Shown in pieces: positions 3,009-44,008 of a stretch of 64,000 nt of DNA. The notes under the pieces are model-generated. The model searched no databases, had not been told where the DNA came from, and saw nothing but the letters and a program-made list of their open reading frames with translations. Source of the DNA: Pseudoxanthomonas sp. SL93 (lineage in GTDB: Bacteria > Pseudomonadota > Gammaproteobacteria > Xanthomonadales > Xanthomonadaceae); the NCBI RefSeq assembly GCF_026625825.1, contig NZ_CP113065.1, positions 3,525,501 to 3,589,500 of the forward strand, in the 5' to 3' direction. A program made the position numbers and the translations under genes. Every line of letters starts with the position of its first letter. Within the stretch, counting starts at the first letter, position 1.

Positions 3009-5072
3009 ATGACCCCTTCAACCGTTTCCCCGCGCCACGCCCGTGCAACGGCCCTGCTCGACCGCGCAGGTCTCCGCGCCGCCGTCTTCGGTGCCTTCAC
3101 CAAGCTGGCCCCGCAGCACGCCTTCAAGAACCCGGTCATGGCCGTGGTCTGGCTGGGCACGCTGCTCACCGCCGGCCTGACCCTGGCCGGCACCACCACG
3201 CCCGGCATCGGCTGGGCGGTGACCGCGTTGCTGTTCGTCACCGTGCTGTTCGCCAACTTCGCCGAAGCCATCGCCGAAGCGCGCGGCCGCGGCCAGGCCG
3301 CCTCGCTGCGGCGGGCCCGCAAGGACCTGGTCGCGCGTCGCGTCGACACGCCCCTCGGCGGTGCGGAACGGCGCATGCCCGCGGCGGACCTGAGGCCCGG
3401 CGACTACGTCATCGTCTCGGCGGGCGAACAGATTCCCGCCGACGGCGAGATCATCAGAGGGTTGGCGACGATCAACGAATCCGCGGTCACCGGCGAATCC
3501 GCCCCCGTGCTGCGCGAGGCCGGCACCGATCGCAGCGGCGTGATCGGCGGCACCAAGGTGCTGTCCGACGAGATCGTGGTGAAGATCACCGCCGAGCCCG
3601 GGCACAGCTTCCTCGACCGCATGATCGCGCTGGTCGAAGGCGCCAACCGGCAGAAGACGCCGAACGAGATCGCGCTGGGCCTGCTGCTCATGACGATGAC
3701 GCTGACGTTCCTGATCGTCGTGGTCACGCTGCCCTTCATCGCCGGTTTCGTCGGCGCGAAGCTCGACCCGCTGCTGCTCGTCGCGCTGCTGGTCTGCCTC
3801 ATCCCGACCACCATCGGCGGCCTGCTGCCGGCCATCGGCATCGCCGGCATGAACCGTGCGCTGGCCGCCAACGTGCTGGCCAAGTCGGGCAAGGCGGTGG
3901 AAGTGGCCGGCGATGTCGACGTGCTGCTGCTCGACAAGACCGGCACCATCACCCATGGCGACCGCCAGGCCACGCTGTTCCATCCCTTGGCCGGCATCGA
4001 CCGCGAGCAACTGCGCGATGCGGCCATGCTCGGCTCGTTGGCCGACCCCACGCCCGAGGGCAAGTCGATCGTGAAGCTGGCGCGCGAGCAGGGCGCCACG
4101 CTGGCCGATCCCGAACGTGCGCAGTTCGTCGCCTTCACCGCGCAGACCCGCATGTCCGGCGTGGACCTGCCGGACGATGGCCGCGGCCACGCGCGCGTCA
4201 TCCGCAAGGGTGCGTCGGACGCGATCCTCGCGCACGTGAAGGCGGGCGGCGGCAGCGCGCCGGCCGAACTCACCGCCCGCGTCGAGCAGGTCGCCCGCAA
4301 CGGTGCTACGCCGCTGGTGGTCAGCGACGGCAACCACGTGCTCGGCGTGGTCGAACTCTCCGACGTGGTCAAGCACGGCATCAAGGAGAAGTTCGCCCAC
4401 ATGCGCGCCATGGGCATCCGCACGGTGATGATCACCGGCGACAACCCGCTGACCGCCGCCGCCATCGCCGCCGAAGCCGGCGTGGACGACTACATCGCCG
4501 AGGCGCGTCCCGAGGACAAGCTGGCGCGCATCCGCCAGGAACAGGCCGGCGGCCGCCTGGTCGCCATGGTCGGCGACGGCACCAACGACGCCCCCGCGCT
4601 GGCGCAGGCCGACGTCGGCCTGGCGATGAACTCCGGCACGCAGGCGGCGAAGGAGGCCGGCAACATGGTCGACCTGGACTCCGATCCGGCCAAGTTGCTG
4701 GAGGTGGTGGAAGTCGGCAAGCAGCAGCTGATCACGCGTGGCGCGCTGACCACGTTTTCGCTGGCCAACGACGTGTCGAAGTATTTCGCGATCCTGCCGG
4801 CGCTGTTCGCCGCCGCCATCCCGTCGATGAGCGCGCTCGACGTGATGCAGCTGTCCAGCCCGACGAACGCGGTGCTGGCCGCGTTGATCTTCAACGCCAT
4901 CATCATCCCGCTGCTGATCCCGCTGGCGTTGCGCGGCGTGCGCTTCCGCCCGGCCGGCGCCACCGCGCTGCTGCGCCGGAACATGCTGGTCTACGGCGTG
5001 GGCGGCGTGCTGCTGCCGTTCGCCGCGATCAAGCTCATCGACCTGTTGCTGGCCGCCGTCATTGGCGCCTGA
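3009..5072 (+). CDS. kdpB: Potassium-transporting ATPase ATP-binding subunit KdpB
   Basis: 687 residues; P-type ATPase of class IA that energises K+ uptake through KdpA. Visible motifs: actuator-domain TGES (in AVTGESAPV), the phosphorylation site DKTGTIT with Asp309, [11 protein letters not shown], and the hinge [10 protein letters not shown]. Hydrophobic hairpins flank the actuator domain and at least three more lie at the C-terminus. A Ser just after TGES (TGESAP) is the one regulated by phosphorylation in E. coli KdpB (Ser162); conservation of control is inferred. Middle gene of kdpFABC. Confidence 0.98.
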
Positions 5073-5927: not shown

Positions 5928-6129
5928 CCCTCTCCCCGCCTGCGGGGAGAGGGTGCCGAAGGCGGGTGAGGGGGTGGACGGAGCCGCGGTCGTTGGCATT
6001 GCAAGGCGGATCGAGTGTCGGGAAACGACACGCACGCACGTGGAGATGCTTCGTGACCGCACAGATCCCAGCCTCCGCTCGCCCCTCATCCGCCCGCTGG
6101 GCACCTTCTCCCCACAGGCGGGGAGAAGG
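5928..6129. repeat. Pair of long inverted repeats, each internally palindromic
   Basis: Left unit 5928-5974 and right unit 6082-6129 are inverted near-copies. Each contains a self-complementary core (CCTCTCCCCGCC/GGGGAGAGG type) plus a G/C-rich tail ending GGGTGAGGGG on the inner side. The 107 bases between them hold no convincing gene. The design is the same as the pair around the DUF559 gene at 42239-42683: palindromic core outside, GTGAGGGG tail pointing inward. Confidence 0.75.
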
Positions 6130-41127: not shown

Positions 41128-42225
41128 ATGAGCGCATATCCCCAGCAGGGCATGCAAGCCGTCACCTTCGACAACCCGATGGGCATCGACGGCTTCGAGT
41201 TCGTCGAGTTTGCCGCACCGGCAGGCCAGGCCGGCCACCTGCACGATTATTTCGCCAAGCTCGGTTTCGTCCAGGTCGCGCGCCACAAGACCCGCGCCAT
41301 CAGCACGTACCGGCAGGGCGACTGCACGTTCCTGATCAACGAAGACCCCGACTCCTTCGCGGCGCGTTTCGCCGCCGAGCACGGCCCCAGCGCCTGCGGT
41401 TTCGCGATCCGCGTCAACAAGCTGGCCGAATGGGCCCGCGTGCAGGCGCTGAAGAACGGTGCCGAATCGTTCGAGACCGCCGACGAACTGACCAAGGCCG
41501 TGGCCGCCCCGGTCATCAAGGGCATCGGTGGCTGCATGCTGTACATCGTCGACCGCTACGACGACAAGGGCACCATCCACGACCCGGACTACGAGTACCT
41601 GCCGGGTGTGGACCTGCTGCCGAAGGGCTTCGGCCTGACCTTCATCGACCACCTGACCCACAACCTCTACCACGGCAACATGGCCAAGTGGGCGGACTAC
41701 TACGAGCGGCTGTTCAACTTCCGCGAGATCCGCTATTTCGACATCAAGGGCGCGAAAACCGGCCTGCTCTCCAAGGCGATGACGGCGCCGGACGGCATGG
41801 TGCGCATCCCGCTGAACGAGTCCAGCGATCCGAAATCGCAGATCAACGAATACCTGGACGCCTACAAGGGTGAAGGCATCCAGCACATCGCCTGCTTCAC
41901 CGACGACATCTACACCACGGTGGAAAAGATGCGCGAAGCCGGCGTCGCCTTCCTGGATACGCCCGAGACCTACTTCGAAGTGATCGACCAGCGCATCCCC
42001 GACCATGGCGAGGACGTCGCGCGTCTGGCCAAGAATGGCATCCTGATCGATGCCGACGTGGAGACCAAGCAGCGCAAGCTGTTGCAGATCTTCACCCAGA
42101 ATGCGCTGGGCCCGATCTTCTTCGAGATCATCCAGCGCAAGGGCAACGAAGGCTTCGGCGAGGGCAACTTCCAGGCGCTGTTCGAGAGCATCGAACGCGA
42201 CCAGATGAAGCGCGGGGTGCTGTAG
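41128..42225 (+). CDS. hppD: 4-hydroxyphenylpyruvate dioxygenase
   Basis: 365 residues. Non-haem Fe(II) enzyme turning 4-hydroxyphenylpyruvate into homogentisate, in tyrosine breakdown (and a source of pyomelanin if hmgA fails). Two VOC modules; iron ligands expected at His in FIDHLTHNLYHGNM, His in GEGIQHIAC and Glu in PIFFEIIQRKG. Start at 41128 is set by TAGGAG at 41115-41120. Followed by the repeat-bounded DUF559 gene instead of directly by hmgA. Confidence 0.97.
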   Translation: MSAYPQQGMQAVTFDNPMGIDGFEFVEFAAPAGQAGHLHDYFAKLGFVQVARHKTRAISTYRQGDCTFLINEDPDSFAARFAAEHGPSACGFAIRVNKLAEWARVQALKNGAESFETADELTKAVAAPVIKGIGGCMLYIVDRYDDKGTIHDPDYEYLPGVDLLPKGFGLTFIDHLTHNLYHGNMAKWADYYERLFNFREIRYFDIKGAKTGLLSKAMTAPDGMVRIPLNESSDPKSQINEYLDAYKGEGIQHIACFTDDIYTTVEKMREAGVAFLDTPETYFEVIDQRIPDHGEDVARLAKNGILIDADVETKQRKLLQIFTQNALGPIFFEIIQRKGNEGFGEGNFQALFESIERDQMKRGVL

Positions 42226-42238
42226 GCTCGTGCCTGAA

Positions 42239-42277
42239 GCCCCTCTCCCGGCGGGAGAGGGGGTTGGGGTGAGGGGC
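42239..42277. repeat. Left inverted repeat of the DUF559 unit
   Basis: 39 bases: a palindromic core CCTCTCCCGGCGGGAGAGG followed by GGTTGGGGTGAGGGGC pointing inward. The reverse complement matches 42646-42683 at all but about three positions. Begins 13 bases after the hppD stop. Confidence 0.9.
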
Positions 42278-42289
42278 AGGAGCATCACG

Positions 42290-42688
42290 ATGACGAACCA
42301 CCGCAGACCTCCCATGGCGACCCGATCCCTCGATCGTGCGCGGGAACTGCGCGGCGGTTCGACGGATGCAGAGCGCAAGCTCTGGTCTGTCCTGCGTGGA
42401 GGCAACATCGACGGGCTGAAATTCCGCCGACAGCATCCCATCCCGCCCTACACGGTCGACTTCTGCTGTTTGTCGGCCGATCTGGTGGTTGAAGTCGACG
42501 GATCGCAACACTCGGAAGAATCTGATCGCGCGCGGACCCGGTTTCTTGAGTCGAAGGGTTTCACTGTCCTGCGCTTCTGGGACAACGACGTACTGATGCA
42601 GATTGAAGCGGTGGTCGAGGCGATCTGCCGGACCGTCTCACCATCGCCCCTTACCCCAACCCCTCTCCCGTCGGGAGAGGGGCTTTAA
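42290..42688 (+). CDS. DUF559 endonuclease-like protein
   Basis: 132 residues. Matches the DUF559 pattern: RGGSTDAERKLWSVLR, GLKFRRQHPIPPYTVDF (Asp57), LVVEVDGSQHSEE (Glu68, Asp70, His74) and GFTVLRFWDNDVL. This is the core of a small PD-(D/E)XK-like nuclease fold related to Vsr; nuclease activity is expected but unproven. The last ~14 codons (SPSPLTPTPLPSGEG) are read through the right inverted repeat, and an in-frame extension upstream of the chosen start is read from the left repeat. Codon third positions look less GC-biased than in hppD and hmgA. A second possible start is at 42314. No methylase gene lies nearby. Confidence 0.85.
   Translation: MTNHRRPPMATRSLDRARELRGGSTDAERKLWSVLRGGNIDGLKFRRQHPIPPYTVDFCCLSADLVVEVDGSQHSEESDRARTRFLESKGFTVLRFWDNDVLMQIEAVVEAICRTVSPSPLTPTPLPSGEGL
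42646..42683. repeat. Right inverted repeat of the DUF559 unit
   Basis: 38 bases: GCCCCTTACCCCAACC then the palindromic core CCTCTCCCGTCGGGAGAGG. Inverted match of 42239-42277. It contains the end of the DUF559 reading frame and stops 17 bases before the hmgA ATG. Confidence 0.9.
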
Positions 42689-42700
42689 AGGCATTCGAGA

Positions 42701-44008
42701 ATGAAGACCTCCACAGACTACGGTTACATGACCGGCTTCGCCAACCACTTCGCCACCGAGGCGATCCCCGGCACGCTGCCGGAGGGCCGCAACTCGCCGC
42801 AGCGCGTGGCGCATGGGCTGTATGCCGAACAGTTGAGCGGCACCGCGTTCACCGCGCCGCGCAGCGAGAACCGGCGCAGCTGGCTGTACCGCATCCGTCC
42901 GGCGGCGATGCACGGTACGTTCGCCCCGTACGGGCAGCAGCGGCTGCACAGCGACTTCAGCGCAGGCCCGGTATCGCCCGACCAGATGCGCTGGTCGCCG
43001 CTGCCGGTGCCGGAGGCGCCGACGGACTTCGTCGATGGCCTGTACACGATGGCCGGCAACGGGGCGCCGGAAGCCATGCATGGCGTGGGCATCCACCTGT
43101 ACGCGGCCAACCGGTCCATGCAAGGCCGCTACTTCTACGATGCCGATGGCGAATTGCTGATCGTGCCCCAGCAGGGGCGGCTGCACATCGCGACCGAACT
43201 GGGCGTGCTGGACATCGAACCGCAGCAGATCGCGGTGATCCCGCGGGGCGTGCGTTTCCGCGTCGACCTGCCGGACGGGGCCTCACGCGGTTATGTGTGC
43301 GAGAACTTCGGCGCACCGCTGCGCCTGCCTGACCTGGGGCCGATCGGCTCCAACGGCCTGGCCAATCCGCGCGACTTCGAGACGCCGGTCGCCGCCTACG
43401 AAGACCTTGAAGGCGCGTTCGAACTGGTGGCGAAATTCCAGGGCCACCTGTGGCGCGCCGACATCGGGCATTCGCCGCTGGACGTGGTGGGCTGGCATGG
43501 CAATTACGCGCCGTACCGTTACGACCTGCGCCGTTTCAACACGATCGGCTCGATCAGCCACGACCACCCGGATCCGTCGATCTTCCTGGTGCTGACCTCG
43601 CCCAGCGATACGCCGGGCGTGGGCAACATGGATTTCGTGATCTTCCCGCCGCGCTGGCTGGTGGCGCAGGACACCTTCCGGCCGCCGTGGTTCCACCGCA
43701 ACATCGCCAGTGAATTCATGGGGCTCATCCATGGCGTCTACGATGCCAAGGCCGAAGGCTTCGCGCCCGGCGGTGCCTCCCTGCACAACTGCATGACCGG
43801 CCATGGCCCGGACGCGGCGACCTTCGAGAAAGCGTCGGCCGCCGACCTGTCGAAGCCCGACGTCATCACCGGCACGATGGCCTTCATGTTCGAGACGCGA
43901 GCGGTGATCCGGCCCACGGCACAAGCCGTCCAGGCCGCGCACCGGCAGCGCGATTACCAGGCCTGCTGGTCGGGCCTGCGCAAGCACTTCGTGCCGCCGG
44001 CCGGCTGA
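42701..44008 (+). CDS. hmgA: Homogentisate 1,2-dioxygenase
   Basis: 435 residues, typical. Fe(II) enzyme opening the homogentisate ring to maleylacetoacetate. Family text: [13 protein letters not shown] at the N-terminus, [28 protein letters not shown] (active site), [20 protein letters not shown] with iron-binding His, EFMGLIHG with the Glu ligand and [10 protein letters not shown] with the last His. Downstream of hppD but separated by the DUF559 unit. The later steps (isomerase, fumarylacetoacetase) are not in the window. Confidence 0.97.

Follow-up and report, generated by a model that had tools for sequence, protein, structure and literature searches.

Repetitive extragenic palindromic (REP) sequences are served by a Y1 HUH transposase, the REP-associated tyrosine transposase (RAYT), and form inward-facing hairpin pairs known as REPINs; a GTAG tag is a feature of REPs. 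A second class, the "intrastrand triplex motif", consists of a hairpin plus a mirror purine third strand, and in the portion of the source used here it is stated that no mobility activities have ever been found for its copies in Escherichia coli (Holder 2015, PMC4666352). How the Caulobacter/Brucella CIR repeats move was likewise not known according to the relevant part of a later account (Chen and Shapiro 2003, via PMC2229807). The E. coli protein YcjD has been used as a known PD-(D/E)XK member and had earlier been related to Vsr, as stated in the section consulted of PMC1189080. Here we describe a DUF559 (PF04480) gene that sits between inverted hairpin repeats in the gap between hppD and hmgA, in a stretch of 64,000 nucleotides (the window) from Pseudoxanthomonas sp. 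SL93, whose genome is a single contig of 3.85 Mb. In our judgement, gene and repeats probably belong to a REPIN-like repeat-plus-nuclease system, with a DUF559 nuclease of the Vsr/EDxHD type as the partner. A bolder proposal, which we put forward tentatively, is that DUF559/YcjD proteins may be the missing enzymes of the intrastrand-triplex repeats (TM/PIT, perhaps CIR), namely widespread Vsr-fold, repeat-mobilising nucleases that recognise the folded end and are unrelated to RAYT and known transposases.

The left repeat (42237..42277, plus strand) was delimited by sequence, inverted-repeat and core searches, a head test and folding. It comprises a pyrimidine arm (42240-42249), a loop (42250-42252) and a purine arm (42253-42262), followed by an inner G-rich head, the proposed third strand (42263-42277). 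The right repeat (42646..42685, minus strand) is its inverted copy, with the hairpin at 42660-42682, the loop at 42670-42672 and the inner head at 42646-42659. Both ends have the same geometry of 10-nt arms, a 3-nt loop and a G-rich head on the gene side. The palindrome cores CCCCTCTCCCGNCGGGAGAGGGG, at 42240-42262 and 42660-42682, are matched twice in the window and never in 100 shuffles with up to three mismatches allowed. Left and right ends are complementary over 32 nt at 91% and 18 nt at 94%, heads included, and as single-stranded DNA both fold into hairpins (z −3.7 and −3.0). The gene itself (42290..42688, plus strand, 132 aa) was identified by profile match (PF04480, 127.4 bits, cut-off 20.6) and by fold, and is preceded by AGGAG (42278..42282, plus strand, found by eye), a likely ribosome-binding site abutting the left head. 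Its last codons lie inside the right repeat, the TAA stop (42686-42688) following directly; the reading frame extends beyond the start of the right hairpin in 52 of the 69 loci with both ends resolved. An original prediction, made by a model from the letters of the window, had described near-perfect inverted hairpin repeats, a DUF559 gene, its overlap with the right repeat and a weaker codon bias than in the neighbours, and each of these was borne out, the last by the GC content at third codon positions (0.70 vs 0.90 and 0.88 in the flanking genes). The span of 445 bp given there (42239..42683) describes a real unit and needs redrawing: from base to base it runs over 42240-42682, or 443 bp (median 450 across 69 comparable loci), and the heads are to be counted as part of the repeats.

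Repeat framing is general to many DUF559 genes in several phyla. In a motif-free test, the best inverted match between the 250 nt upstream and the 250 nt downstream of the domain was scored, and a locus passed at 18 or more. One sample consisted of the top-scoring loci, one per genome (30 from the family and 29 from the phylum); another, the named set, of the best 80 of 574 loci, reduced to 79 by removal of L194 as an N-run artefact. A systematic family set took every third remaining match from a list that omitted the weaker ones, and 35 of 38 were used, since the final two rows and one row adjacent to another selected gene were left out. The sets overlap slightly (L137/L162, and the near-identical proteins L031/L161 and L109/L179), and L032 and L088, truncated by contig ends, were scored as misses. 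Framing was found in 24/35 systematic loci against 0/505 control positions, in 24/30 family and 11/29 phylum top-scoring loci (control positions, 1/122), and in 54/79 named loci (55/80 with L194 included) against 2/1076. Removal of the hppD-hmgA loci leaves 16/27 in the systematic set, 21/27 in the top family set and 45/70 in the named set. Framed named loci include alpha-, beta- and gammaproteobacteria, Thermodesulfobacteriota, Nitrospirota, Chloroflexota, Omnitrophota and Melainabacteria. The search for flanking repeats at other DUF559 genes that had been proposed with the original prediction gave a result above controls. At L153 and L154 the gene is framed by another repeat (AAATCCCCCC...TTTTTCAAAGGGGGGA), perhaps a further end type.

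The ends share one architecture: a pyrimidine arm, a short loop, a purine arm, and then an inner G-rich head that mirrors the purine arm. In the window, the purine arm GGGAGAGGGG is mirrored by the inner head GGGGTGAGGG when A and T are treated as equal, and the left end scores 1.00 in this comparison (p 0.003). A survey of 346 ends from 173 DUF559 loci found a pure purine/pyrimidine hairpin (arms of at least 8, loop of at most 12) in 249, and in 248 of these the purine arm faces the gene; the sole exception, L226, is a G run. A mirror head of at least 0.8 was present on the inner side in 202/248 and on the outer side in 18/248, and the inner one reached p<0.02 by shuffling in 146/248. This orientation, together with framing in 24/35 and 54/79 loci, upholds the earlier suggestion that gene and repeats form one unit. 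Stems and heads are constrained and loops are not: among seven close copies, diversity was 0 in stems, 0-0.02 in heads and 0.16-0.40 in loops, the comparison columns giving 0.29 at third codon positions and 0.22 in the outer intergenic sequence. Read from its sequence, the window repeat is laid out like the published intrastrand triplex motif, the triplex itself being predicted. The heads are also seen in direct arrays at a regular spacing of ~187 or 60 bp (G094:C1:5250-5645 and G101:C1:1482747-1483006).

The protein carries the marks of a conserved nuclease. Across 20 diverse members, 17 columns are invariant, including E18, D47, E58, D60, H64 and D69, which we take to form an E-D-x-H-D site, and a median ratio of nonsynonymous to synonymous substitution rates (dN/dS) of ~0.10 over the 21 pairs of seven close copies indicates strong purifying selection. 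The AlphaFold2 model (predicted local distance difference test score, pLDDT, 87) is nearest to NGO0050 (3hrl; template modelling score, TM, 0.77) and second nearest to the homing endonuclease I-Bth0305I (3r3p; TM 0.68, E 3.6e-6; profile search, E 2.4e-4). The window protein passes neither the YcjD-type model NF007294 (99.3 bits, cut-off 218) nor the Vsr family model TIGR00632 (13.4 bits, cut-off 97.85). A reading as a defence system was dropped, the only match being a weak one to DpdF (16.5 bits). One could also regard DUF559 as a Vsr-type mismatch or methylation-linked nuclease beside which the repeats are incidental. The fold is indeed Vsr-like (TM 0.64, yet with a Foldseek E of just 0.018-0.019), and Caulobacter VsrA, which has a DUF559 domain, is required for the DNA damage response on loss of the cytosine methylase ScmA, according to the part of the study drawn on (PMC12907096). 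However, the wide framing would then be coincidence and the Vsr score lies far below its cut-off, so that we regard this explanation as very improbable.

Repeats and proteins also agree in type. Several repeat types were observed (CTCTCC, TTCTCC, TTCCCC and CCTCCCC), and both ends are of the same type in 83/95 loci, where 31.7 were expected. A tree of 127 DUF559 proteins, restricted to loci with one agreed named type, requires 30 changes of type, compared with a shuffled mean of 50.2 and no equally low value in 200 shuffles, a count which rests on few alignment columns and is helped by near relatives. The host genome itself holds two DUF559 genes with different repeat types, each grouping with proteins of the same type: L001 (TTCTCC) with L050 and L146 (TTCTCC, support 100/82), and L002 (CTCTCC) inside a 22-row CTCTCC clade (support 97/89). 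L001 is the second host gene, at ~1340-1870 of that locus (G000:C1 ~1638887-1639417), framed by TTCTCC repeats of which the right one is partly decayed. Among the best 80 of 574 named loci, the one nearest to the window gene, at 94% across the DUF559 domain, comes from Pseudoxanthomonas mexicana.

The number of repeats in a genome is linked to the presence of the gene. In 149 genomes of one bacterial family, with counts tabulated by hand, at least five copies of repeat A were found in 57/84 DUF559-positive genomes vs 1/65 DUF559-negative ones, and the mean copy number of A and B together was higher with DUF559 in 12 of 13 mixed genera, with one tie and none lower. A reversed-pattern control gave counts nearly equal to the real ones in the first repeat count, because the repeat is nearly its own mirror image, and was unusable there, DUF559-negative genomes being taken instead; in the second repeat count it was near zero. 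These data bear on a further explanation, in which RAYT moves the repeats as REPs and DUF559 travels along as cargo. RAYT-like genes occur in 110/149 of the genomes, with two matches in the host, and RAYT alone is also linked to at least five copies of repeat A (53/110 vs 5/39). On the other hand, RAYT without DUF559 rarely goes with that many copies (1/38, vs 5/12 for DUF559 without RAYT), and the window's ends lack the GTAG tag. RAYT was accordingly set aside as the mover, and we give this explanation almost no weight.

The dispersed form of the repeat consists of gene-less pairs that are present or absent between relatives. The other repeats of the host genome are gene-less inward-facing pairs (for example 2774532/2774633, 2856999/2857095 and 3185197/3185293), and two that were examined measure ~120 bp. 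Of 29 host sites listed by pattern, a list that lacks the second DUF559 gene's decayed right end, the two ends of the DUF559 unit form the only neighbouring pair spaced 200-2000 bp apart. In the window, one such pair of the same repeat class, paired by eye, lies at 5928..6129 (no strand assigned), with a CTCTCC end on the left and a TTCTCC end on the right. One ~123-bp pair recurs at many places in the genus, at 74-89% identity among the matches listed; counts of such pairs are lower bounds, the first pass having scored 10 candidates per genome. At the L005 place, clean empty sites were found in L280 and L285, where the neighbours' stop and start codons overlap, while three relatives (L273-L275) carry the pair in the opposite orientation and four more loci are occupied. 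Furthermore, an identical 27-nt variant within one hairpin is common to the DUF559 unit L116 and the gene-less pairs L304 and L308, which suggests that ends may have been exchanged between gene-bearing and gene-less forms.

The gene-bearing form has a different history. In the window, the unit lies between hppD (41128..42225, plus strand) and hmgA (42701..44008, plus strand), both known from profile annotation and both whole, in keeping with the position first assigned to it. Across the genus, hmgA was present in 36/38 genomes and the gap could be read in 35, of which 19 hold DUF559, each with a hairpin at either end of what fills the gap (19/19). The comparison of this gap in relatives that had been suggested as a check turned up sites without the gene: 16/35 gaps lack DUF559, of which L085 keeps a lone palindrome (matched by pattern), L120 one that looks decayed by eye, and the other 14 neither. 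The two palindrome cores of the unit are also direct repeats of each other, and we infer from its sequence that L085 looks like the product of joined cores. Two copies of the gene are broken, L073 by an internal stop and L086 by a frame change. Other gaps without DUF559 hold different material: an inverted pair (GTAGGAGCG...) that is RAYT-type REP-like by look in L070, L081 and L082, and ~465-585 bp of other, possibly coding, sequence in L072, L118 and L119.

When 176 loci were checked, the 21 hppD-hmgA DUF559 loci, from at least ten genera, made up 21 of the 22 rows of the clade supported at 97/89; at the remaining row, L165, neither hppD nor hmgA was seen. Since all of them fall in one clade, the DUF559 gene is a long-standing occupant of this gap that has been lost and exchanged in place; a freely hopping gene unit was dropped on the same ground. 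Loss or same-site exchange is the more likely source of the gaps without DUF559, and the absence of the unit in four congeners of G029, which might suggest a fresh insertion, may reflect either loss or gain. The original prediction had called mobility unlikely if all relatives carried the gene here and DUF559 homologues elsewhere lacked such repeats; gene-less sites exist, and DUF559 genes elsewhere are often framed.

Same-site exchange is also what a homing endonuclease would bring about, were DUF559 to invade empty alleles of this intergenic site by break repair, with the repeats as recognition or protective ends and the gene-less pairs as by-products. In one clade of 15 close hosts, three lineages of DUF559 occur and three gaps lack the gene, and L068 has its right outer flank in common with L066/L067 and a different DUF559 lineage, both of which fit homing, as does I-Bth0305I being the second-nearest structure. 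However, such exchange also follows from ordinary homologous recombination across hppD and hmgA, the gene-less pairs at many other sites are left unexplained, and no intron or intein context was seen at the window gene, no RNA-family search aimed at introns having been made. Homing seems unlikely to us for these reasons; of the homing-nuclease idea voiced in the original prediction, the kinship of fold with I-Bth0305I stands.

According to the repeat-plus-nuclease reading that we prefer, the repeat would fold once it becomes single-stranded, for example at a replication fork, and the folded end could be recognised by DUF559 and nicked at its base or loop. The DNA lying between two folded ends might then be cut out or copied and inserted again, either in cis or in trans. 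The DUF559 gene, framed by two inward-facing repeats, would stay long at one chromosomal site while the gene-less pairs scatter.

Several observations weigh against this reading. Unframed DUF559 loci are not rare (11/35 systematic, 6/30 and 18/29 top-scoring, 25/79 named), and the left flank of one locus against the right flank of another also reaches a score of 18 in 21/359 comparisons, because repeat types are common to several loci. The window's right head mirrors its arm at 0.90, yet with p 0.12. E. coli ycjD carries a triplex-type repeat on its downstream side only. The copy-number signal is weaker for repeat B (at least five copies in 13/84 vs 1/65), two DUF559-negative genomes (G036 and G045) have at least five copies of A and B together, and the link of repeat A to RAYT alone counts here as well. 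Among the loci compared, the gene unit was not seen to have moved recently to another site, and target-site duplications of at least 4 nt occur in 6/69 loci vs 4.8 in shuffles (at least 5 nt, 4 vs 1.3), none of them clear. The REPIN- or MITE-like (miniature inverted-repeat transposable element) character first proposed for the element is supported for the dispersed gene-less copies, while the gene unit gives no sign of hopping freely. All of the support is computational, and it is from this that we infer binding, cutting and movement chemistry for DUF559.

The link between DUF559 and copy number carries no direction of its own, and cause might run the other way. The repeats might spread or arise otherwise, by replication slippage or another enzyme, with DUF559 kept in repeat-rich genomes to resolve or repair the folds, while the pair around its gene would regulate or insulate that gene. 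The low dN/dS and the long residence at one site would fit such host service, and raised variability at triplex motifs in E. coli is reported in the portion used of Holder 2015 (PMC4666352). By itself, this account leaves the framing by inward-facing, type-matched ends unexplained, and we consider it improbable, somewhat more so than homing. If the repeat-plus-nuclease reading is true, on the other hand, the triplex-type repeats, which are common and unexplained, would gain a partner enzyme that makes the question of their mobility testable, and DUF559, E. coli ycjD included, would gain a testable function, as a nuclease that may recognise an unusual fold of DNA.

The E. coli locus deserves separate mention. 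The DUF559 family search gave no match in the E. coli control genome. Yet many E. coli genomes have an annotated ycjD, and the part consulted of PMC12817139 names the gene for K-12. Just upstream of ycjD (L266 ~3935-3985), an inverted repeat, CACCTCATTCTGACAAGA..., may serve as an operator; it differs from the triplex repeat downstream. E. coli was dropped as a clean empty-site series because efflux genes occupy the place in the ycjD-less strains (4/4 inspected); PMC12817139 also describes this region.

A literature search, to which subscription journals were mostly out of reach, showed no paper linking DUF559 to triplex-type repeats among those listed, and the system resembles several described ones in part. 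The Vsr mismatch endonuclease is alike in fold, but the window protein is far below that family's cut-off and is repeat-associated. The catalytic fold is also that of I-Bth0305I (EDxHD, 3r3p in the Protein Data Bank), whose entry is named as a mobile intron protein, whereas the window gene is free-standing, intergenic and repeat-framed. The CIR repeats, of ~110 bp with two inverted-repeat arms and a linker in the account available, resemble the gene-less pairs. E. coli YcjD belongs to the same Pfam family and has a triplex-type repeat directly downstream, but a different inverted repeat on its upstream side. Closest in the repeats themselves is the intrastrand triplex motif (TM, TMECO, earlier PIT, with BoxC alongside; PMC4666352), which has the same layout, is intergenic and was noted in inverted pairs; the portion of that paper drawn on names no partner gene or nuclease, whereas here the motif frames DUF559 genes. 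REPIN/RAYT differs in that the unit here contains a Vsr-fold PF04480 nuclease rather than an HUH Y1 tyrosine transposase, in that the window repeats carry a third strand of purines and lack the GTAG tag at their ends, and in that repeat copy number is not explained by RAYT. Inward-facing hairpin pairs, dispersed gene-less pairs and a resident gene framed by repeats are nevertheless common to both, and the DUF559 system, if our reading is true, would be a second, independent solution to the role that RAYT plays for REPs.
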